A stretch of DNA of 40,787 nucleotides from Sharpea porci (lineage in GTDB: Bacteria; Bacillota_I; Bacilli_A; Erysipelotrichales; Coprobacillaceae). The position numbers and the translations under genes were made by a program. Shown here one piece after another: positions 15,925 to 36,736 of the stretch. Within the stretch, counting starts at the first letter, position 1, and the number at the start of each line of letters is the position of its first letter. The notes under the pieces were generated by a model. It made no database searches. It saw only the letters and a list, made by a program, of their open reading frames with translations, and was not told the DNA's origin. The stretch spans positions 1 to 40,787 of the forward strand of contig NZ_VUNM01000025.1 of assembly GCF_009695655.1 (NCBI RefSeq), given 5' to 3'.

Positions 15925-15940
15925 GAAAAAACATATAAGT

Positions 15941-16101
15941 TCAATAGCACTCCACATTCCTGTGACAGTGAAGTAGATATTCTCTAAATCACCAGGAAAA
16001 ACAAGTTTACAGCCTCATTCAACCTTCGGCGGTTTCTCCTCCAACAATACCTGTCTGTAAACATTGATACTGTCTTCTTAGCACCCGCGCCTCTATTTAG
16101 G
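15941..16101 (-). ncRNA. Lysine riboswitch (L box)
   Basis: Read on the minus strand, conserved L-box segments appear in the right order: AGAGGCGCGG, then AGTATC, TTGGAGGAGAAACCGCCGA (consensus GGAG...GCCGAAG), GAGGCTG, CACTGTCACAGG and TGTGGAGTGCTA. P1 closes by AATAG with CTATT. It lies in the leader of the ACT-dapA-dapB-lysA operon, directly upstream of a conditional terminator. Lysine binding should stop transcription. Confidence 0.93.
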
Positions 16102-16104
16102 CAA

Positions 16105-23740: not shown

Positions 23741-24045
23741 TTATTCACCGCTTAATCACAACTTACGCACATATGCATAAAGTTATTCACACCTGTGAAT
23801 AACGTCTTTTCCCATCCTTATTATATATAGAGAGGTGTGCATAAGGGTGTGAATAAGAAAGTTATCCACAATTTTTAAAAGTTATGCACAGTGACTAATG
23901 ATCTTATGCACATTGGGGATTTAGGCACAATTTGTGAATAAGTAGGAAAATGTTGATATATATACGTCTCAATTGTGCATAAGTATGTGGATAAGTTGTG
24001 AATAACTTTTTTATTCTTCTATTTTATTCACAATTCCTCTATAAT
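23741..24045. other. Replication origin, upstream DnaA-box cluster and dnaA promoter
   Basis: Thirteen 9-mers fit TTATNCACA or its complement, most exactly: 23741 (last base C), 23783, 23794, 23836, 23848, 23862 (perfect TTATCCACA), 23882, 23904, 23933, 23974, 23986 (perfect TGTGGATAA), 23997 and 24024. The pair at 23783-23802 is a perfect head-to-head palindrome. The final box (24024-24032) lies just upstream of TATAAT (24040-24045), the likely dnaA -10, which suggests DnaA autorepression. Gene order and box density identify oriC. The second half lies after dnaA. Confidence 0.92.
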
Positions 24046-24068
24046 AGGTGGGAAAGGTAAGGTGCATT

Positions 24069-25409
24069 ATGACTACGTTAGAATCGAATTGGGAGAAAAC
24101 CCTCAATATCTTTGGTCATAACTTTGAAGATAAGGTCATTTTTGAATCTATCATCACCTTATTAAAGGCTCAGGAAGTTAATAGTCATGAGCTTATTGCG
24201 ACAATAGAAGCTGAATTTAATGTCCCCATCGTTAGTGAGTATGCTGATGAACTAGAAAAGATCTACAATGAAATCACCGACAGCCATATTAAGCTTACAA
24301 TCATGAGTGAAGAGGCTTATTTAAAACAACATGCTTCGGACAATACACCGGTACATTTTGAAGATCATTTAAGACCAGATTTCACCTTTACAAACTTCGT
24401 TGTAGGGAACTCTAACCGTATTGCCCAGAATGCCTCTCTTGCAGTAGCAATGAAACCAGGTGCGGCTTATAGTCCTTTGTTTATTTATTCTAATAGTGGA
24501 CTTGGTAAAACCCACTTACTTAATGCGATTGGGAATTATATTAAAGAAAAAAAGCCCCATTTACAGGTGCTTTATTCAACTTCTGAACAATTTGTGAATG
24601 ACTATATTTCATCCTTATCAAATCATACAATCAATGATTTCAATTTTAGATATCGTAATGTTGATGTCTTATTGATTGATGACATTCAGTTTATTGCGAC
24701 AAAAGAATCAAGTAGTGAGATGTTCTTTAATATCTTTAATGCGTTACAAAATGATAATAAACAGATCGTCATATCATCTGATAAACCGCCAAAAGATCTT
24801 AAAGGCATGGAAAATCGTCTTGTTTCACGTTTCACCAATGGTTTAACTGTCTCCATTGATACGCCTGAATTTGAAACAGCTAAAGCTATTTTACGAAAAA
24901 AGATTGAAATAGAAAAAGTGGACTATCCAATTGATGAAGAAGTCCTTGATTTTATTGCGTCACATTTCAATCGAGATGTTCGTGAACTAGAAGGCAGCTT
25001 AAAGCGTTTATTCTTCTATAAAGTCGTTACTGGTCAAGAATATGACCATATTAATATGGAATGTGCGCTTGAAGCATTCAAAGAAGACTATCATACAACA
25101 GTCAATACGTCTAAAAATGAAGAACTGAGTGTTGATAAGATAAAGAAAGTGGTTGCCGAGTACTATAATTTATCCGTACAACAGATTAATTCTAAATCGC
25201 GTACATCCAATCTCATTGTGGCAAGACATATTGCCATGTATTTAGTAAGAAATCTTATCGAAAGTATTTCTTATATTCAGATTGGGAAGGAATTTGGTGG
25301 TCGTGATCACTCAACTGTTATGAAAGCCTGCGATAAGGTGGAAAAGAATATGAAAAAAGATCCTAATTACCGTAAAGCGGTAGAGGAAATTAAGAGTAAA
25401 CTTGTTTAA
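24069..25409 (+). CDS. dnaA: Chromosomal replication initiator DnaA
   Basis: The 446-residue protein has the N-terminal domain I (LESNWEKTLNIFGHNF), a linker, the AAA+ domain (Walker A NSGLGKTHLLNA, Walker B VLLIDDIQF, sensor ENRLVSRFTNGL), and the C-terminal DNA-binding domain with signature FGGRDHSTVMKA. ATG 24069 follows AAGGTG by 4-5 nt; a GTG at 24048 is possible but gives an atypical N-terminus. In Walker A the usual first glycine is replaced (YSNSGLGKT), which may be lineage-specific; the essential GKT is intact. DnaA boxes flank the gene on both sides. Confidence 0.97.
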   Translation: MTTLESNWEKTLNIFGHNFEDKVIFESIITLLKAQEVNSHELIATIEAEFNVPIVSEYADELEKIYNEITDSHIKLTIMSEEAYLKQHASDNTPVHFEDHLRPDFTFTNFVVGNSNRIAQNASLAVAMKPGAAYSPLFIYSNSGLGKTHLLNAIGNYIKEKKPHLQVLYSTSEQFVNDYISSLSNHTINDFNFRYRNVDVLLIDDIQFIATKESSSEMFFNIFNALQNDNKQIVISSDKPPKDLKGMENRLVSRFTNGLTVSIDTPEFETAKAILRKKIEIEKVDYPIDEEVLDFIASHFNRDVRELEGSLKRLFFYKVVTGQEYDHINMECALEAFKEDYHTTVNTSKNEELSVDKIKKVVAEYYNLSVQQINSKSRTSNLIVARHIAMYLVRNLIESISYIQIGKEFGGRDHSTVMKACDKVEKNMKKDPNYRKAVEEIKSKLV

Positions 25410-25412
25410 AAC

Positions 25413-25580
25413 TGTGAATAACTATTTAAGTTATGCACCGTTATTCACCACTTATTCACACCCTAAATCACAGCATTTCTTCTCTATTTATCATGATATT
25501 TTGAGTTATTCACATAATTCACAGGCTATTATTATGATTATTAAAGATATAGAGAAATAAATAAAAAAAGAAAAAAGGAG
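25413..25580. other. Replication origin, downstream DnaA-box cluster and AT-rich unwinding candidate
   Basis: DnaA-box matches lie at 25413, 25431 (last base C), 25441 (last base C), 25452, 25506 and 25515 (one mismatch). They are followed at about 25525-25580 by an almost pure A+T stretch (TATTATTATGATTATTAAAG and onward). In B. subtilis unwinding occurs between dnaA and dnaN next to such a cluster, so this is the best candidate for the unwinding element. I could not match a clear DnaA-trio series. Confidence 0.75.
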
Positions 25581-25587
25581 ATTTGAA

Positions 25588-26688
25588 ATGAAATTTAATA
25601 TCAAGCGAACAGTTTTACTGAATGCTTTATCAAGAGTATCTCGATCTGTCTCATTAAAGAGTCCACTTCCAGTACTCACAGGTATCAAATTTGATTTAAA
25701 GACTGATGGTCTTATATTAACTGGTAGTGATAGTGATATTTCGATACAAACGAAAGTCACTGAAGATATTGAGATTATTGAAACAGGTTCTGTTGTTTTA
25801 TCGTCTAAATATATTTTGGAAATTGTCCGTAAGATTGCTAGTGACACAATTAGCTTTGAAATTTTAGATGGTGCTTTAACACGTATTGATGGTGGGAGTT
25901 CTCAATTTAATTTAAATGGCACACCTGCATTTGATTATCCAAGAATTGATTTCTCTAAAAAAGGTACACTGATTACTATTGATTCAGAAATCTTAAAGAG
26001 ATTAATCGAAGAAACTTCTTTTGCGACAAGTGAAAATGAAATTAGACCAGCCTTAACAGGTGTCAATTTCCATGCTGCTAATAATCAGCTTACATGTATC
26101 GCTACAGACTCTTATCGTTTAGCCCAGGCTACAAGTCCAATCCCTGATGACAATACTTTCAATATCATTATTCCAAAGAAATCTCTTGTTGAAATATCAC
26201 GTATTATTGAAAAAGATGAACCTATTGATATCTATGTTGAAGACAAGAAAATCTTATTTATTATTGATGAATATATGATTATTTCTCGTTTAATAGATAG
26301 TTCATACCCAGATACATCACGTCTTATTTCTGATTATTATGAATTTGAATTGACTGTTTCATCACATACATTATTAGGTGCGATTGACAGAACAACACTT
26401 CTTTCTAATGAAGACAAGAATCTTGTAACACTGACGATGGATCCAGATCATGTCACTATGACATCAAATAGCCAGGAAGTTGGTTCTGTCGAAGAAGATT
26501 TACCTAAGGCATTCTATAAAGGTGAACCTCTCAGTATCTCTTTCTCTGGTAAATATCTCGCTGATGCTATTAGAGCTATTAACTCTGATAAAGTCAAACT
26601 TGAGTTCTCTGCCCCAATGCGTCCATTTATTGTCAAGGACTTAGAGAGCGATGACAACATTCAATTAGTATTGCCTGTACGTAATTAA
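25588..26688 (+). CDS. dnaN: DNA polymerase III sliding clamp (beta subunit)
   Basis: DnaN forms the ring that tethers polymerase to DNA. The 366-residue protein has three clamp repeats, begins MKFNIKRTVLLNALSRVSR, includes NEIRPALTGVNFH and ATDSYRLAQA in the second domain, and ends with PMRPFIVKD and IQLVLPVRN, the family's C-terminal signature. AAAGGAG lies 8 nt upstream. It is followed by a terminator, so here it is cut off from yaaA-recF by inserted genes. Confidence 0.97.
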   Translation: MKFNIKRTVLLNALSRVSRSVSLKSPLPVLTGIKFDLKTDGLILTGSDSDISIQTKVTEDIEIIETGSVVLSSKYILEIVRKIASDTISFEILDGALTRIDGGSSQFNLNGTPAFDYPRIDFSKKGTLITIDSEILKRLIEETSFATSENEIRPALTGVNFHAANNQLTCIATDSYRLAQATSPIPDDNTFNIIIPKKSLVEISRIIEKDEPIDIYVEDKKILFIIDEYMIISRLIDSSYPDTSRLISDYYEFELTVSSHTLLGAIDRTTLLSNEDKNLVTLTMDPDHVTMTSNSQEVGSVEEDLPKAFYKGEPLSISFSGKYLADAIRAINSDKVKLEFSAPMRPFIVKDLESDDNIQLVLPVRN

Positions 26689-26714
26689 GATGAGCTTATA
26701 TATTTAACTATTTT

Positions 26715-26750
26715 GACGGAAATACCTGAGATGGTATCATCCGTCTTTTT
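26715..26750 (+). terminator. Terminator after dnaN
   Basis: GACGGA and TCCGTC with inner TACC and GGTA form an interrupted stem followed by TTTTT. Confidence 0.8.
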
Positions 26751-26867
26751 CGTATTGATTAACATTAACATTAATATCCAACATCTATATCTATTAAATG
26801 GGATATGTTTTCAAATTATATTCACTTACTAGAAGATAAAAAATTCATTTGATTAATTTAGTATTGT

Positions 26868-26992
26868 CTGATAGGGAACTTCTTTCAGTTAAATACAAAT
26901 ATTAAGTCGAAGAATTGATGCTATAAATGATCTATTATCACTCAGGAAATATAAATCATTCGATATTAATGACAGTTCCTTATCAGTTTTTT
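26868..26992 (+). ncRNA. Candidate structured RNA or miniature element of 125 nt
   Basis: CTGATAGGGAACT (26868-26880) pairs over 13 bases, one of them G-U, with AGTTCCTTATCAG (26974-26986), and six T follow at once. The 93 nt between contain further partial pairings (TCGAA near 26912 with TTCGA near 26959). A long-range closing stem ending in a T-run resembles a leader RNA or riboswitch-like element, but no known class is recognised; a small inverted-repeat insertion is the alternative. The rest of 26751-27066 holds no gene I can support. Confidence 0.35.
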
Positions 26993-27066
26993 ATATCACT
27001 TATAAAATGAAAATATTATAAAGAATAAGATGCATGCGCGATATCCCCAAAATAAATCACAATATT

Positions 27067-27116
27067 TGTAAGCGCTTTATGTTTTACTTGTGCTATATAC
27101 TTTTTTTTTGTATTCT
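27067..27116 (+). promoter_or_regulatory. Promoter of the bacteriocin operon with cre-like site
   Basis: TTGTGC (27088-27093), 17-nt spacer, TATTCT (27111-27116). TGTAAGCGCTTTAT at 27067-27080 matches 12 of 14 positions of the CcpA cre consensus and sits just upstream of the -35, the position from which CcpA activates in some promoters. Catabolite control is a suggestion. Confidence 0.45.
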
Positions 27117-27163
27117 TTAAGTAAATAGGGAAAGGTACAATTTTTAGAAAGGACTTATATAAT

Positions 27164-27472
27164 ATGAAATTAAAAAAGAAAATTGCAATAATCTTTAGTG
27201 TTGCATTCTTATTATGCTTACCTGCATCAGTGCTTGCGAAGGATTATCACTATAGTGATGGTTTTATTTCAATAGATATGGGTGACACTAATTATTCAAG
27301 CGGTAGATCTACGTATTATACTGCGTATGCCTGCAAATCGAGAATGTCACACTCAAAAATTACGACAAAAAGGCACTCACTAACGAGAAGTGGCTATCAG
27401 AATAGTTATGCGAAACTTGAAGAAGTAGAGAGAGACGATAAACATCAGCATACTTATTGGAATGATAACTAA
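27164..27472 (+). CDS. Lactococcin-972-like bacteriocin precursor
   Basis: This is a 102-residue precursor. The signal peptide MKLKKKIAIIFSVAFLLCLP ends at SVLA-KD (about residue 25), giving a mature peptide of about 77 residues that is basic, rich in His, Ser and Tyr, with one Cys. Spaced features resemble lactococcin 972: a Tyr/Ser segment (STYYTAY), SRMSHSKITTKRHS, a middle GYQNSYAKLEE, and an aromatic C-terminus HTYWND. Lactococcin 972 is Sec-exported, non-lantibiotic and blocks septum formation by binding lipid II. Similarity of the peptide alone is modest; the call rests on the two following genes, which match the family's export/immunity pair. AAAGGA lies 10 nt before ATG. Its stop overlaps the next start by 11 nt. 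Confidence 0.7.
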   Translation: MKLKKKIAIIFSVAFLLCLPASVLAKDYHYSDGFISIDMGDTNYSSGRSTYYTAYACKSRMSHSKITTKRHSLTRSGYQNSYAKLEEVERDDKHQHTYWNDN

Positions 27473-29438
27473 ACTCACAACCATTAAGACAACAACTATC
27501 ATCTTAATGGCCTGTGTCCTTTCCTTCTTCATCATTGACTTTGCTGCCCGCGACATGAATGGTGATTTTAGGGACCAATTAGATTCTCATTTTAAGGATT
27601 CCTTGGAGATTTCCTTTGATTACCGTACAAAGAATGATGAACGAAAAGCTATTCTAGAGTATTATGCAAAGAAGTATCATTTCTCCTTCTATTGTTATGA
27701 ATATCATTCAGAGAATGATTCCAATTTCTATTTTATCTATGATCCCTCAAATCGTATTACTTTAAAGAAATATGATATTGGTGGTTACTTTAATCGACAC
27801 TATATACATGATGTCAAAGCTATAAATGAAAACCAATATTATTTAACTAACTATAATATTCTTTTTGATGGTGATAAGTCAGCTATCGAAGATGCTTTCT
27901 CTAGCATGAAAGATATTAGAATAAAAGAGGAATACAATCAACATAATCATCATGTTAAGGGTAATTCTACATTTATCTTTCTTCTACAGACCGTTTCAAC
28001 ATATATCACCATATTACTCATAGTTTATCTTATAGTTGAGTTGGCAATCTATGAAAAGCAATGCAAAGAATATGCTTTAAAAAAGATGCATGGCATAAGT
28101 GTCTTGACCATCTTGAAAAAGACATATATAAATGATTTTCTAGCTGTTTCACTTCTTTATTGGCTTACAAATCTGATATTTGTTTTTGGGTTAGGATATA
28201 AAGGGAATGATTATAGCTATATATTAAAGATGAGTGCTAAGATCTATGGACTCCTACTTATACCATTTATCCTGATAGATGTCTTAGAAAGTGTAGGTGT
28301 ACGTTTCCTTAGCATCAAGGATGCTTTAAAAAATAGAGTGAATGTTGTGGTATATGATGCAGTTTCTATTGCTTTCAAATTTGTGACAGTCTTCTTCTTG
28401 ACATTCCAGCTTGTTTCTTTGACAAGTCATGCTTATGACTTATATAAGCAGACAAGAGAACTCAATAAGATAGCCCAGAAGACAAAATATATGATGAGAA
28501 TTTATGGTATGGATGTACGCTATGATCTTTCTAACGATGAGACGGTTAAAGTTATGAACAAATTTGATCAGCTTGTACAAGATAATGGCGGTATCTATAT
28601 TGATGCCAGTAATTATTATACAAAAGATGGTGGAAATCCTTATGGCCCATTAAGTTATTTTAAAAAGGCTATTATTGTCAATGAGAATGCAGTATCTTTT
28701 TTCCATATCAAGGATGTTAAAGGAAAAGATATTATCATTGATAAAGTTAAACAAAGATATCTTCATCCAATACTCCTTGTTCCTGAAGATTTGAAGGATG
28801 ATCCTAAGGTTCAATCTTACATAAAGGATTCTGATTTGAAATATGAAGTTATTACTATTCAATCCAATCAAAAGATTTATTCATTTAGACCTGAACTGGC
28901 TAATAGGAATGATGGATGGATTATTAATTCAATTATGATCATTGATGGAAGTTCACTTAATGATGCATTGATTCCGATCAAAGACAAAGATATTGAAATG
29001 GGTTTTAAGAACTTACTTAATGCGTATGATATAGATGATAAGTTATTGCTGAAAATGAGACCTGCTGATTATTTCAATGAACATATGAAGTGGCTTAAAG
29101 AAGAGGCTATGCGTTATCTTGTTATTTCTATATTCTCATTATTATTAGCAGCAATCGTGATTTATCAAAGTATTGTCATCTATTTCAAGAGAAATATGAA
29201 ACGTATTTTGATACTGAAAGTGAATGGGAATTCCTTTGTGGAACGTTATGATATGTATTTCATTACTGATTTATCACTGTACATGATTATGGGAATACTT
29301 TCAGTGATTTTGGGAAGACCTCATAATGTTTTGGCTTTATTTGTCATTTATCTGCTCAATATCATATTTTTAACAGCTACATTAAGGCATGTTGAATCAA
29401 GTAAGATCATTGCCTTTCTTAAAGGAGATGATAGATGA
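27462..29438 (+). CDS. Bacteriocin-associated multi-pass membrane protein (putative immunity/transport)
   Basis: This 658-residue protein has an N-terminal membrane segment (about 9-28), an extracellular region to about 165, four more segments (about 170-195, 228-248, 258-278, 297-322), a second extracellular region (about 330-550), then three C-terminal segments. The 7-8 segment, two-ectodomain layout is FtsX/MacB-like and matches the integral membrane proteins that accompany lactococcin-972-type peptides, proposed to give immunity or release the peptide from the membrane. It starts inside the precursor gene without a good site of its own, so translation is coupled, and its stop overlaps the ABC ATPase start. 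Transport versus immunity cannot be decided from sequence. Confidence 0.8.
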   Translation: MITKLTTIKTTTIILMACVLSFFIIDFAARDMNGDFRDQLDSHFKDSLEISFDYRTKNDERKAILEYYAKKYHFSFYCYEYHSENDSNFYFIYDPSNRITLKKYDIGGYFNRHYIHDVKAINENQYYLTNYNILFDGDKSAIEDAFSSMKDIRIKEEYNQHNHHVKGNSTFIFLLQTVSTYITILLIVYLIVELAIYEKQCKEYALKKMHGISVLTILKKTYINDFLAVSLLYWLTNLIFVFGLGYKGNDYSYILKMSAKIYGLLLIPFILIDVLESVGVRFLSIKDALKNRVNVVVYDAVSIAFKFVTVFFLTFQLVSLTSHAYDLYKQTRELNKIAQKTKYMMRIYGMDVRYDLSNDETVKVMNKFDQLVQDNGGIYIDASNYYTKDGGNPYGPLSYFKKAIIVNENAVSFFHIKDVKGKDIIIDKVKQRYLHPILLVPEDLKDDPKVQSYIKDSDLKYEVITIQSNQKIYSFRPELANRNDGWIINSIMIIDGSSLNDALIPIKDKDIEMGFKNLLNAYDIDDKLLLKMRPADYFNEHMKWLKEEAMRYLVISIFSLLLAAIVIYQSIVIYFKRNMKRILILKVNGNSFVERYDMYFITDLSLYMIMGILSVILGRPHNVLALFVIYLLNIIFLTATLRHVESSKIIAFLKGDDR

Positions 29439-30064
29439 TGCGTATTGAACTTAGACATATTCATAAATCTTTTGGGAGTAAAGTGCTTTTTGATGACTTT
29501 TCTTATGTCTTTGAAGAAGGAAAAATCTATGCTGTTACGGGTGATAGTGGTACGGGGAAGACAACACTACTGAATATGATTGGTTTCTTAGAAAAAGTTG
29601 ATCGTGGAGAAATCATTATTGATGGTAATAACCACTGGTCTAGTAAAAAAATCAGAGAACTCTATAAACATAAACTCAGTTTCCTTTTTCAAAATTATGC
29701 TCTTATTGATAACTATACGGTAGAAAAGAATCTTCAACTTATCTTAGATAAGAATGATGATAAGAGAATTGATGATCTTCTGAATCTTCTACATATTAAA
29801 GATTTAAAGAAACAACGTATCTATACACTTTCAGGTGGACAGCAACAGCGTGTTGCTCTTGCAAGAGCCTTACTGCATAATACAGATATCATGCTTTGTG
29901 ATGAACCAACAGGTAACTTAGACGAACATAATAGGGATATTATCATCACTATTCTTAAAGAATGGATGAATGAAAACAAAATCATTATCATGGTGACACA
30001 TGATCTTGAACTTGCTAAGCAATGTGATATCCAAATTGATCTCAATACTTTTTTTCAAGTTTAG
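29435..30064 (+). CDS. ABC transporter ATPase of the bacteriocin operon
   Basis: The 209-residue ATPase is complete: Walker A GDSGTGKTT, Q-loop FLFQNYALIDNYTVEKNL, signature LSGGQQQR, Walker B IMLCDEPTGNLD, and H-loop MVTHD. It belongs to the LolD/MacB-like group that pairs with FtsX-type permeases, here the 658-residue protein just upstream, whose stop it overlaps by 4 nt. AAAGGAG lies 7 nt upstream. It is short at the C-terminus (ends FFQV), as in lactococcin-972-group ATPases. Confidence 0.9.
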   Translation: MMRIELRHIHKSFGSKVLFDDFSYVFEEGKIYAVTGDSGTGKTTLLNMIGFLEKVDRGEIIIDGNNHWSSKKIRELYKHKLSFLFQNYALIDNYTVEKNLQLILDKNDDKRIDDLLNLLHIKDLKKQRIYTLSGGQQQRVALARALLHNTDIMLCDEPTGNLDEHNRDIIITILKEWMNENKIIIMVTHDLELAKQCDIQIDLNTFFQV

Positions 30065-30098
30065 AAGCAAGAAGAAATAACGTTTCTCTTGCTTTTTT
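30065..30098 (+). terminator. Terminator of the bacteriocin operon
   Basis: AAGCAAGAAGAAA pairs with TTTCTCTTGCTT with one bulge, then TTTT. It directly follows the ATPase stop and closes a three-gene operon. Confidence 0.85.
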
Positions 30099-30174
30099 GT
30101 CATCTTTTTCGCATAAAATAAAAATAATGTATGTAGATATCAGAAACATAAACATATCATGATATAGTATATGT

Positions 30175-30463
30175 ATGGAAAATAAATATAGACATACAGA
30201 CACAACGGTATCTTTGATCAACTACCATTTTGTCTTTTGTCCAAGATACATGCGTAAAATTTTTCTGATATCAAATGTAGAAAGACGCTTTAGGGAACTG
30301 GTCAAAATAAAATGTAAGGAGTTGGAAATTGAAATCATTGCAATCGAATGTGATAAGGACCACTCTCATATGTTCTTGAATTGTCCTCCAGCATTAAGTC
30401 CTTCAGGCATTATGCAGCGAAGCAATTAAAAAGTATGCAGAAAGTCAGAAGAAGAGATACTAG
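30175..30463 (+). pseudogene. tnpA: Y1 transposase TnpA, internally deleted
   Basis: The first about 80 residues match IS200/IS605 TnpA: LINYHFVFCPRYMRK at the start and the HUH-type metal motif as DHSHMFLNCPP (His-Ser-His), then SPSGIMQ. Immediately afterwards the frame is lost, and the family's C-terminal end reappears in another frame as AIKKYAESQKKRY ending at 30463. The intervening about 50 residues, which should hold the catalytic tyrosine, are missing. The protein should therefore be inactive, and the element cannot move without help. Confidence 0.85.
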
Positions 30464-30501
30464 AAAAAGAGAATATCATATCAGAAAGCGAGGTGAACAT
30501 C

Positions 30502-31962
30502 ATGGCAAGCTTTATTGTTGAATTTCCATTGATAACGGAAAAATATCAGGAAGATATTTTAAATAAGCGTTTTGAGACTGGAAGAAAGATCTATAATTCC
30601 TTAGTCAATGTAACACAGAAGCGTTATAAGGAAATGATTAAAACCAAGAGATATCGCACTCTTCTGTCTTCATTGTCTGAGAGTGAAAAGTCAGATAAAG
30701 AAATCTGGAAACAGATAAACGATATGCGAAAGCAATATAGCATGTCAGAATATTCATTTCACAAAGATGTGAAGCAGATGCAAAGACATTTTAAGGATAA
30801 TATTGATTCGTTTACTGCACAGAAGATTGCAACAGCATTATGGAAATCCTATGACAGGTTATTCCATGGAAACGGCAGGAAAGTTTATTATAAGAAATAT
30901 GGTGAATTAAATTCACTTGAAGGAAAATCCAACAAGACAGGAATCAGAATAATTAATGATACTCTTGTCTGGAATGGGTTAAAAATCCCAGTTTCAATTG
31001 ATTATGACAATCATTATGAATGTCAGGCTATGCAATGTGATATCTGTTATAACAGGATTGTCAGGAAATATGTAAGAAACAAATATAAATTCTATGTTCA
31101 GGTAGTCTTTAAAGGAAATCCACCTGTCAAGGTGGATGCTGAAACTGGTGAAATGAAACATCGCATTGGCGATGGTGATGTTGGTCTGGATATTGGAACC
31201 AGAACCATTGCCATTTCAAGCCAGTCTGATGTAAGAATATTAGAACTTGCTGACAGGGTCCAGAACATTGAAAACCAGAAACAGAAACTTCTGAGAAGAA
31301 TGGACAGGTCAAGACGTGCAACTAATCCAGATAATTATAATGAAGATGGAACCGTTAAGAAGCAAGGCGATAAGAAAGTCAGATGGAACAAATCAAATCA
31401 CTATATCAGATATCAAAACGAATTAAGAGAACTATATAGAAAGCAGGCAGATATAAGAAAGTATCAGCATGAATGCCTGGCAAACTATATCATATCTCTT
31501 GGAAACAAAGTATATGTCGAAAAAATGAATTTTGCAGGACTTCAGAAGCGTGCTAAAAATACTGAAAAGAATGATAAAGGCAAGTTTAAGCGAAAGAAAC
31601 GTTTCGGTAAGTCATTAGCCAATAAAGCGCCAAGTATGCTGCTGACTATTATAAATAGGAAATTAGGATATTTTGGCGAGAAATTAACAGAAATAAACAC
31701 TTCTGAAGCAAAGGCAAGCCAGTTCAATCACTTTGATGGAACATATACAAAGAAGACACTGTCACAGAGATGGAATGATCTTAATGGAATCAAGATACAA
31801 AGAGACATGTATTCCGCTTTCCTGATAATGAATATAAGTGATGATCTGAAAAGCTTTGATATTGATAAATGTAATGGAAGATTTGAAAACTTCTATAGAC
31901 TCCATAATCTGGAAGTAGACAGACTAACTGGCAGGAAGAATCTAAGCAGTATCGCAATTTAA
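30502..31962 (+). CDS. tnpB: TnpB, RNA-guided nuclease of IS200/IS605 elements
   Basis: This 486-residue protein has the RuvC-like triad: Asp in GLDIGTRTIA (about residue 230), Glu in VYVEKMNFAGL, and Asp in IQRDMYSAFLI near the C-terminus. TnpB uses an RNA from the element's right end to guide DNA cleavage. The usual four-cysteine zinc ribbon between the Glu and last Asp is missing: that stretch reads SQFNHFDGTYTKKTLSQRW with no Cys pair. Related TnpBs with an RDLYSAFLI-type end share this lack, so it is probably a subfamily trait and not damage. GAGGTG lies 6 nt before ATG 30502. Complete and probably functional. Confidence 0.88.
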   Translation: MASFIVEFPLITEKYQEDILNKRFETGRKIYNSLVNVTQKRYKEMIKTKRYRTLLSSLSESEKSDKEIWKQINDMRKQYSMSEYSFHKDVKQMQRHFKDNIDSFTAQKIATALWKSYDRLFHGNGRKVYYKKYGELNSLEGKSNKTGIRIINDTLVWNGLKIPVSIDYDNHYECQAMQCDICYNRIVRKYVRNKYKFYVQVVFKGNPPVKVDAETGEMKHRIGDGDVGLDIGTRTIAISSQSDVRILELADRVQNIENQKQKLLRRMDRSRRATNPDNYNEDGTVKKQGDKKVRWNKSNHYIRYQNELRELYRKQADIRKYQHECLANYIISLGNKVYVEKMNFAGLQKRAKNTEKNDKGKFKRKKRFGKSLANKAPSMLLTIINRKLGYFGEKLTEINTSEAKASQFNHFDGTYTKKTLSQRWNDLNGIKIQRDMYSAFLIMNISDDLKSFDIDKCNGRFENFYRLHNLEVDRLTGRKNLSSIAI

Positions 31963-32133
31963 AAAGAGAATATATAAACAGGTTTTGACACGAGCCTTAT
32001 GCTATCGCTAATGGATGCAGTGGCATCTTTGGTAGTGAAAGTCTTATAGAAACTCATTAGTCTCATATGCTTTCGAGCATATCTGGAAGTGAATGTATAT
32101 AAGAACCCAACGTGCTTTAGCCGTTGGAGTGTC
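31963..32133 (+). ncRNA. Right-end region, putative omega RNA for TnpB
   Basis: In IS605-type elements the guide scaffold is transcribed from the end of tnpB through the right end, and the guide is the flanking DNA. This 170-nt noncoding stretch has several hairpins (CATATGCTTTCGAGCATATC near 32066; CCAACG/CGTTGG at 32107-32127) and ends at the element boundary. By position the guide would be the first bases after about 32133 (CAGACAAATTATTACT). No direct evidence of expression. Confidence 0.6.
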
Positions 32134-32759
32134 AGACAAATTATTACTTGATAATGATGTTGTTGTGCTATGTGAATATGGACAATATGATGCACAGAAT
32201 GAAGCTGATTTTACTGCTTTAAAAAAGGTAAACATAAACATCAATAGCTATGATCTTTTCATGTCAAAAATTGTCCAAGGAACAGCGGATGGTGGTATTG
32301 CACCCGTGACAGTAATCACGAGAAAGTCATTGAACAATCATATCGATGATAATTTCACCTATAGCACAACTTTTTGGTACTCTTCATTTAAAGAATGATC
32401 ACTATCCTGAAATAATTGCCTTACATACCGCTCCACCTTTAGCTATGTTGAAGAATGAATGGCAAAATGATTTACAATTGATCAGTGATAAATTGATCAA
32501 TAAGTATCCCGATGCGATTATTCTTGGCGACTTCAATGCAACTTTGCGTCATGGTAGTTTAAGTACCATTAAGACACATAAAGATGTCCTCAATGCTTTA
32601 CCCTTCTGGAAGAGGGGAACTTGGCATACTCAGATGCCTTGGTTTATTCGCTCATCCATTGATCACATACTTGTCCCTAGAGACTATAAAATAAAAAGTG
32701 TTGCGGTGATGGATTTAGGAGAGTCTGATCATACATGCATTCAGGTTAATCTTATATAG
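32134..32759 (+). pseudogene. Endonuclease/exonuclease/phosphatase-family protein, 5'-truncated and frameshifted
   Basis: Frame one gives LLLDNDVVVLCEYGQYDAQ to about 32370, the usual domain start where the metal-binding Glu is found. The rest continues in another frame as FGTLHLKNDHYPEIIALHTA, then IILGDFNATLRHG (GDFN motif), IDHILV and ESDHTCIQV (SDH motif), the canonical EEP C-terminus. The frame change lies near a T-run at about 32366-32371. The 5' portion is missing: the IS element directly abuts the fragment and no matching N-terminus lies on its other side. Such proteins are DNases, sphingomyelinase-like or inositol phosphatases; the original role is unknown. Confidence 0.85.
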
Positions 32760-32760
32760 A

Positions 32761-32800
32761 AATGTCCCCTTCACTAAGTTATTAAGGTGGGGGCATTTTT
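32761..32800 (+). terminator. Terminator after the EEP pseudogene
   Basis: AATGTCCCC pairs with GGGGGCATT (one G-U pair), then TTTT. It follows the stop codon at once, confirming that the remnant was a real gene. Confidence 0.8.
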
Positions 32801-32862
32801 ATTTTTATTTCTTAAGAATATAGGTTCATGGTAGAATAATTGAGAAGAGTGAGGTGATTATA

Positions 32863-33136
32863 TTGAATACATTTTCCATTGCCTTATGTGATGATGATCC
32901 AGTCATTCATAGAATAGTTCTACAAAATATCGAGTCTTTCTATAAAAGTAAAAAATATATCAGTGAATATACAAAGTTATTATCATGCTATGAATATACT
33001 AAATGATGCTAAAAATCATTAAGTTGTTCTTATGGATATTGATTTTCCTGATATTGATGGCATTGAGGTTGCAAAAAGATTAAAGATTATTCATCCGAAT
33101 AGTAAAGTTGAACGCTTCAAAGATGGATATCTATAA
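32863..33136 (+). pseudogene. Response regulator (AgrA/LytTR-type) remnant
   Basis: A TTG start with GAGGTG upstream begins NTFSIALCDDDPVIHRIVLQ, the receiver-domain N-terminus with its acidic pair. A stop at 33004-33006 ends that frame; the domain continues one frame over with NILNDAKNH, a second stop, then VVLMDIDFPDIDGIEVAKRL, which holds the phosphorylated Asp. It ends after HPNSKV where unrelated sequence begins. The LytTR DNA-binding half is gone. At least a frameshift, a nonsense codon and a large deletion are present. Confidence 0.8.
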
Positions 33137-33141
33137 AAATA

Positions 33142-33342
33142 GGAGAAGGTAGTTTTTTTTGGTCAGTAACTATTTCTAATGCGACATTGAATACTTCTAT
33201 GTTGAAGACTTCTAAAACTGATAAGAAAAACCATGGCTTTGGGCTGAAACATGTCAAAGAAATAGTGAAATAGTATGATGGAAATTTTAATTATGAGTTA
33301 CTACAAAATTGTTTTATTGCCAATATCACATTAAGAAAGTGA
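33142..33342 (+). pseudogene. AgrC-like histidine kinase, ATPase-domain remnant
   Basis: The frame reads EGSFFWSVTISNATLNTSML, then TSKTDKKNHGFGLKHVKEIV, a stop where a Lys codon is expected, and YDGNFNYELLQNCFIANITL to the stop at 33342. HGFGLKHV is the G-box of GHKL-type sensor kinases that partner LytTR regulators. The sensor, dimerisation and N-box parts are missing; the join to the regulator remnant at about 33115-33141 looks like one deletion that removed over a kilobase. Confidence 0.8.
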
Positions 33343-33374
33343 TATATCTTTGTTGAATAGATATTAGATAGCAT

Positions 33375-33407
33375 AAAACGCTTAAATTTCTTGTTTAAGC
33401 GTTTTTT
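33375..33407 (+). terminator. Terminator after the two-component remnant
   Basis: AAAACGCTTAAA pairs with TTTAAGCGTTTT around a 7-nt loop, then TT. It probably served the lost kinase gene and now isolates yaaA-recF. Confidence 0.85.
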
Positions 33408-33513
33408 GGTTAAAGTAATGGTAGAATATGGTTTTTATGGAATGCTTTTTCTGTACTAAAATTCGCATATTTGTGCTATAATAGGCAAGTATGAGAAAGG
33501 ACAGTGTAGTTTC

Positions 33514-33716
33514 ATGAAAGATTTAGAAATATCAACTGAATATATTACTCTAGGACAAGCGATGAAACTTTCTGGTGCTGCTTCTTCTGGCTTTGAGGCG
33601 AAGGTGCTCATTCAAGAAGGTGATGTCACTGTAAATGGTGAAGTAGATACACGTCGTGGTAAGAAGCTCTATGATGGTGATATATTTGGTTATGACGGTG
33701 AAACGTATCGTATTAC

Positions 33717-33735
<19 letters not shown>
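33514..33735 (+). CDS. yaaA: S4-domain RNA-binding protein YaaA
   Basis: This 73-residue protein is almost wholly an S4 RNA-binding fold: ITLGQAMKLSGAASSGFEAK, VNGEVDTRRGKKLYDGD. It is the short protein conserved between dnaN and recF in Firmicutes (YaaA/RlbA in Bacillus), of uncertain role, perhaps in ribosome assembly. AGAAAGGA lies about 13 nt before the ATG. Its 3' end overlaps recF by 19 nt. Likely promoter: a TATAAT (33478-33483) upstream, after the foreign segment. Confidence 0.92.

Positions 33736-36736
<3,001 letters not shown>

Follow-up and report, generated by a model that had tools for sequence, protein, structure and literature searches.

The window analyzed here, a 40,787-nucleotide stretch of the Sharpea porci genome (contig NZ_VUNM01000025.1 of assembly GCF_009695655.1), carries dnaA, dnaN, a gap, yaaA, recF, gyrB, gyrA and serS. 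The genes were named from their sequences, and we take the arrangement to represent the region of the replication origin. The gap between dnaN and yaaA, at positions 26689-33513, contains a bacteriocin-like operon, the remnant of an IS200/IS605 element, a broken gene of the endonuclease/exonuclease/phosphatase (EEP) type and, at 32863-33342, the relic of a two-component regulatory system (Table 1). The IS200/IS605 remnant, whose TnpB-like ORF scores below the NCBIfam cut-off, abuts the broken EEP gene. A lysine riboswitch (RF00168, 73.3 bits) is present elsewhere in the window, on the minus strand at 15937-16103.

Table 1. Features in and around the dnaN-yaaA gap of the window
Feature	Position	Strand	Remarks
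dnaN	25588..26688	+	left border of the variable gap
Bacteriocin-like operon	27164..30064	+	context, not demonstrably connected with the relic
Secreted peptide candidate of the operon	27164-27472	+	
DUF1430 membrane protein	27462-29438	+	
ABC ATPase of the operon	29435-30064	+	
IS200/IS605 element remnant	30175..31962	+	truncated TnpA 30175-30429, TnpB-like ORF 30493-31962
Broken EEP gene	32132..32759	+	first ~128 codons lost, one frame change
Terminator-like hairpin just past the end of the EEP gene	32762..32812	+	-12.1 kcal/mol, z -2.3; not in simple terminator scan
Response-regulator receiver fragment, LytTR-type by relatives	32863..33133	+	TTG start, phospho-acceptor Asp region kept
Receiver/kinase junction	33110..33133	+	differing frames, exact point ambiguous
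ATPase domain of a GHKL (HATPase_c_5) kinase, last two thirds to three quarters	33118..33342	+	PF14501, 47.5 bits
Terminator-like hairpin 3' of the kinase fragment	~33374-33409	+	-15.4 kcal/mol, z -5.3; not in simple terminator scan
yaaA (S4-like small protein)	33514..33735	+	right border of the gap, then recF

Both genes of the relic are broken, and they stand in the order regulator then kinase, as they do in related systems. The receiver starts in frame 1 at the TTG of position 32863, switches frame somewhere between ~32972 and 33006, and then runs on in frame 2 across the phospho-acceptor region, with a TAA at 33020-33022, to end near 33133; a small loss is possible in addition to the frame change and the TAA. 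The junction near 33110-33133 brings another frame change, and from ~33118 the kinase tail is read in frame 1 to a stop at 33340-33342, with a TAG at 33271-33273. The Pfam model PF14501 matches positions 33118-33333 above its cut-off of 22 bits (E 3e-12 for the genome), and this match is partial, covers model positions 27-101/102 and has the one TAG inside it. The Asp region of the receiver can still be recognized, as can the C-terminal HGxGL stretch in the ATPase domain, while the membrane sensor, the phospho-acceptor His region and the front of the ATPase domain are absent from the kinase remnant. Neither a full regulator nor a full kinase can be read from this DNA.

For homology searches, the relic was read with X at its broken places. 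Among 43 genomes of the family, the matches of the receiver fragment are open frames 222-298 amino acids long, the best of which (E 1.9e-9) lies on contig C20 of the genome that we label G028. The best match of the kinase tail outside the window, among 294 genomes of the order, is on the same contig (E 3.6e-11). There, the regulator (232 amino acids) and then the kinase (417 amino acids) form one operon, locus L100, which adjoins his genes and has no bacteriocin beside it. The regulator contains LytTR (PF04397, 76 bits) and receiver (PF00072, 72 bits) domains, and the kinase matches PF14501 with 73 bits and the staphylococcal AgrC model only weakly (26 bits, far under the cut-off of 500). In a phylogenetic tree, the G028 pair is the sister of the relic with a support of 88. 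This pair is thus the best match of both halves of the relic, but it is intact and occupies another chromosomal place. It is the nearest intact pair, yet its identity to the relic is just 37% (54 residues over 145 aligned positions), which does not pin down the ancestor.

When the G028 regulator was compared with the window using tblastn, its residues 1-93 were matched in two pieces (E 1e-8). No LytTR DNA-binding domain was found in the comparison with relatives, in which regulator homology does not extend past ~residue 93, and the presumed LytTR type of the relic's regulator is taken from its intact relatives. The Pfam receiver model does not match the 50-amino-acid ORF at the start of the relic when that ORF is searched alone. 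Gene order is nearly uniform among related systems: the regulator is directly 5' of the kinase in 28 of 30 loci, these loci having been selected for regulator and kinase matches near each other, with ORFs of <180 amino acids left out. The other two are L209, where the kinase ORF is short, and L214, where the fetched stretch holds no regulator. The second-best relatives by identity (33%) are another, intact LytTR/GHKL pair that both Sharpea genomes share (L101 6551-8550 on G000:C56, and L105 5961-7960 on G001:C8). Small ORFs that follow this shared pair in G000 look membrane-bound or secreted by eye.

Because the PF14501 match exceeds its cut-off, and because both halves of the relic find their best match in one operon and in the expected order, we regard the relic as the real remnant of a pair rather than as a chance resemblance. 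The start of the relic does include a short ORF (32854-33006; 50 amino acids, or 47 codons from the TTG) that has a ribosome-site-like stretch and could still yield a small peptide. Nonetheless, the strength of the kinase match and the common operon to which both halves lead exclude chance and make a live gene for a small peptide, in place of a relic, very improbable. With a probability of roughly 0.87, the relic represents the non-functional remains of an ordinary LytTR regulator/GHKL kinase operon, which is a known kind of system, and has no special link to bacteriocins. No present function of the relic is apparent, and as a pseudogene pair it matters little by itself.

The relic is 480 bases long, compared with ~1.95 kb from regulator start to kinase end in the G028 pair, and therefore ~1.5 kb are missing. 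One internal deletion would have removed the DNA-binding half of the regulator together with the membrane sensor, the phospho-acceptor region and the front of the ATPase domain of the kinase, and the smaller lesions may have arisen before or after it. The simplest account is a single large deletion accompanied by several small lesions. The initial annotation, made from the sequence without database searches, had described a receiver fragment fused by deletion to the tail of a GHKL ATPase domain. The two fragments are borne out by PF14501 and by the matches of relatives, and fusion by deletion is a fair reading of the missing length.

The same annotation called the relic a fossil of an AgrA/AgrC-type system, which is right for the domain type alone. 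The relic shares both domain families with LytTR/GHKL pairs of this type and, like its relatives, has the regulator before the kinase. It differs from such pairs in that it lacks the LytTR domain, the membrane sensor and the phospho-acceptor His region, and in that stops interrupt it. In agr systems, B and D genes are present and the kinase precedes the regulator. Neither a B nor a D gene was seen beside the relic, and a search for AgrB (PF04647) gave 0 matches in the genome of the window (77 contigs, 99% complete), although no control genome passed the cut-off either. That no AgrB gene was found goes against the annotation. With regard to an AgrD-like or double-glycine peptide gene, for which a search had also been proposed, three gaps in the window were scanned for ORFs of 20-70 amino acids with a ribosome-site motif; the scan returned the regulator start alone and no double-glycine ORF, and such a scan would miss peptides that lack the motif or lie farther off. 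The same scan around the G028 pair gave two short ORFs, neither with a double glycine. In the accessible part of PMC8895600, the combination of HATPase_c_5 and LytTR is listed for the LytTR family alone among the systems studied.

The hairpin behind the kinase fragment, which folds well, had been taken for the kinase's own surviving terminator. However, it lies within sequence that is common to Sharpea azabuensis, where it directly follows the EEP gene and no kinase is present. In a genome of another genus (G012), the same hairpin is found directly behind dnaN. The hairpin therefore predates the relic, and the earlier assignment requires correction; the lack of an AgrB match is the second point on which that annotation is corrected. 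The relic sits just ahead of this pre-existing hairpin, inside the dnaN-yaaA gap. The other hairpin, just past the end of the broken EEP gene, was not seen at the corresponding place in S. azabuensis.

The comparison within the genus Sharpea comprises the genome of the window and one other genome, that of S. azabuensis (G001). According to the accessible part of PMC7738495, Sharpea porci has 88.9% ANI to S. azabuensis. In our comparison of window positions 24000-35000, the two genomes are 90% identical over dnaA-dnaN and 92% identical from yaaA to the start of gyrB. The dnaN-yaaA interval of S. azabuensis contains an intact EEP gene of 342 codons, in the same place and as the sole gene of the gap, followed by the hairpin; it has neither two-component genes nor a bacteriocin operon. 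EEP proteins of this kind were found in no genus of the family besides Sharpea among the 43 genomes searched, and a separate search with the G001 protein matched S. azabuensis alone (strain DSM 18934, at 100%), records of or near the window's genome having possibly been left out. Related strains had been suggested as a place to look for an intact pair at this position, and none is found in S. azabuensis, the sole Sharpea relative compared.

These observations could reflect either gain or loss of the pair. It may have been ancestral in Sharpea beside the EEP gene, with S. azabuensis losing all of it and the species of the window keeping a fragment. The two species diverge sharply in the last EEP codons, where S. 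azabuensis has a stretch resembling the sequence that follows the kinase in the window, as a deletion would leave it. However, the resemblance is weak, since 5% of single-base shuffles score equally (9% for the other side), and aligned to what follows the kinase, the EEP end of S. azabuensis matches too weakly to separate gain from loss. Insertion into the end of the EEP gene would give a similar picture, and the comparison covers two Sharpea genomes. We hold ancestry with subsequent loss as a tentative possibility, somewhat short of even odds.

The gap in which the relic resides differs in content between genera of the family, and may be near-empty or hold an EEP gene, ATPase-like ORFs or regulator-kinase-ABC sets. 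The 43 family genomes gave 25 complete intervals; the others are 3 without a yaaA match, 10 whose match came with no locus, 4 in which the contig stops within the gap, and the genome of the window. The gap is short (~150-415 bases) in 16 other family genomes, and besides S. azabuensis there are 8 further complete intervals that contain other genes. Two of these (G023 and G024) carry ATPase-like ORFs, which resemble P-type ATPases, and two more (G008 and G031) carry single ORFs. In the remaining four (G002, G004, G005 and G029), the gap holds a regulator and a kinase-like ORF together with an ABC ATPase and an ORF resembling a permease, as read from receiver and ABC matches and ORF starts, a set that we would liken to Bce-type modules. 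By these searches, a LytTR/GHKL pair occurs in 0 of the 25 complete intervals, S. azabuensis included, and the regulator-kinase sets of these four genomes are different from it. A gap of such variable gene content beside the origin is a modest lead for specialists.

The bacteriocin-like operon in the gap of the window resembles lactococcin-972-type clusters (TIGR01653/01654/03608, DUF1430), with which it shares a DUF1430 membrane protein and an ABC ATPase, but its two proteins score under the NCBIfam cut-offs (59.7 versus 189.35 bits, and 236.1 versus 254.85). Its peptide candidate has a signal-peptide-like start, as judged by eye, matches no family, and shows no similarity to the lactococcin-972-like peptide of genome G033. 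Of 315 genomes of the order, 59 have a DUF1430 match at E 0.001 and 39 have one above the cut-off. Elsewhere in its genome, S. azabuensis has a DUF1430 match below the cut-off (22.4 bits), and none to the window's own DUF1430 protein.

Across the order, LytTR-type regulators do lie near DUF1430 operons more commonly than in controls. Strong regulator matches (E below 1e-20) are present within 6 kb of 14 of 47 DUF1430 loci versus 0 of 20 controls (one-sided Fisher p 0.003), the controls being few: stretches of 14 kb, chosen by hand on large contigs of the same genomes. The loci comprise 44 that hold 47 of the 48 above-cut-off DUF1430 places outside the window, one such place in G073 being left out, plus three below the cut-off. 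Five of the tested DUF1430 loci had contributed sequences to the regulator model, and two of these to the kinase model; without the five training loci the regulator counts become 9 of 42 versus 0 of 20 (one-sided Fisher p 0.02). Weaker regulator matches occur at three more DUF1430 loci (E 1.3e-14 to 1.6e-8; 17 of 47 in all) and in 4 of 20 controls (E 5.3e-10 to 2.6e-7). At the remaining 30 loci, the flanks that were read, many of them cut by contig ends, gave no such regulator. A kinase is also present at 6 of the 47 loci and in none of the controls, a difference that is not significant alone (p 0.11). By density, 1.5 kinases would be expected in the flanks (P of six or more 0.004), where the expectation uses a single family (399 PF14501 matches in 43 genomes) and the observed six come from our custom kinase model.

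A Pfam search bears out LytTR in each of the nine strong regulators outside the model-building set; one of these (L138) has no receiver match, and one of the six kinases (L157) has no match in Pfam at all. The regulator-kinase pair precedes the DUF1430 operon on the same strand in four genomes, directly in G033 and G039 and at a distance from the DUF1430 gene of 1.9 kb in G012 and 1.3 kb in G082 (loci L114, L115, L147 and L149). The pair is downstream of DUF1430 in G085 and on the opposite strand at a second G033 locus. In the accessible parts of the literature, we found no description, for this order, of a LytTR/GHKL pair adjoining a lactococcin-972-type operon, and the accessible part of PMC12345188 contains neither "response regulator" nor "histidine kinase". 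The occurrence of LytTR regulators close to DUF1430 operons of the order is also a modest lead for specialists.

These associations bear on a further proposal of the initial annotation, that the pair once controlled the neighboring operon through peptide sensing and was then lost, leaving the operon without its regulator. DUF1430 operons in the order are sometimes accompanied by two-component genes, contrary to what would be expected if the two never occurred together, and the upstream, same-strand pairs described above count in favor of this proposal. Among 28 pairs, the DUF1430-adjacent regulator of L149 ranks fourth by receiver match to the relic, and the kinase of L114, likewise beside DUF1430, ranks ninth by kinase match. 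A regulatory link to such an operon is thus plausible in kind, but for the relic it would serve only as a prior. Unlike the upstream pairs of the lactococcin-972-type relatives in G033, G039 and G012, the relic is downstream, 2.8 kb past its operon and beyond the IS200/IS605 remnant and the broken EEP gene, and it belongs to another branch. The six DUF1430-adjacent pairs are 19-28% identical to the relic and do not cluster with it in the tree, in which deep nodes are weak. Its nearest relative, the G028 pair, is in a genome with no DUF1430 match, and S. azabuensis has the EEP gene intact with no bacteriocin operon there. Most DUF1430 loci, moreover, lack such a regulator in the flank read. The quorum-regulation history is not favored, and former control of this operon by the pair appears improbable to us.

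Remains of an ordinary LytTR/GHKL operon are therefore the reading that we prefer for the relic. A broader proposal combines two ideas: that the origin gap repeatedly gains and loses modules in this family, several of them equipped with sensors and ABC transporters of their own, and that the relic is the trace of a regulator cut from a lactococcin-972-type operon of a kind that repeatedly recruits LytTR regulators in the order. We consider this combination unlikely.
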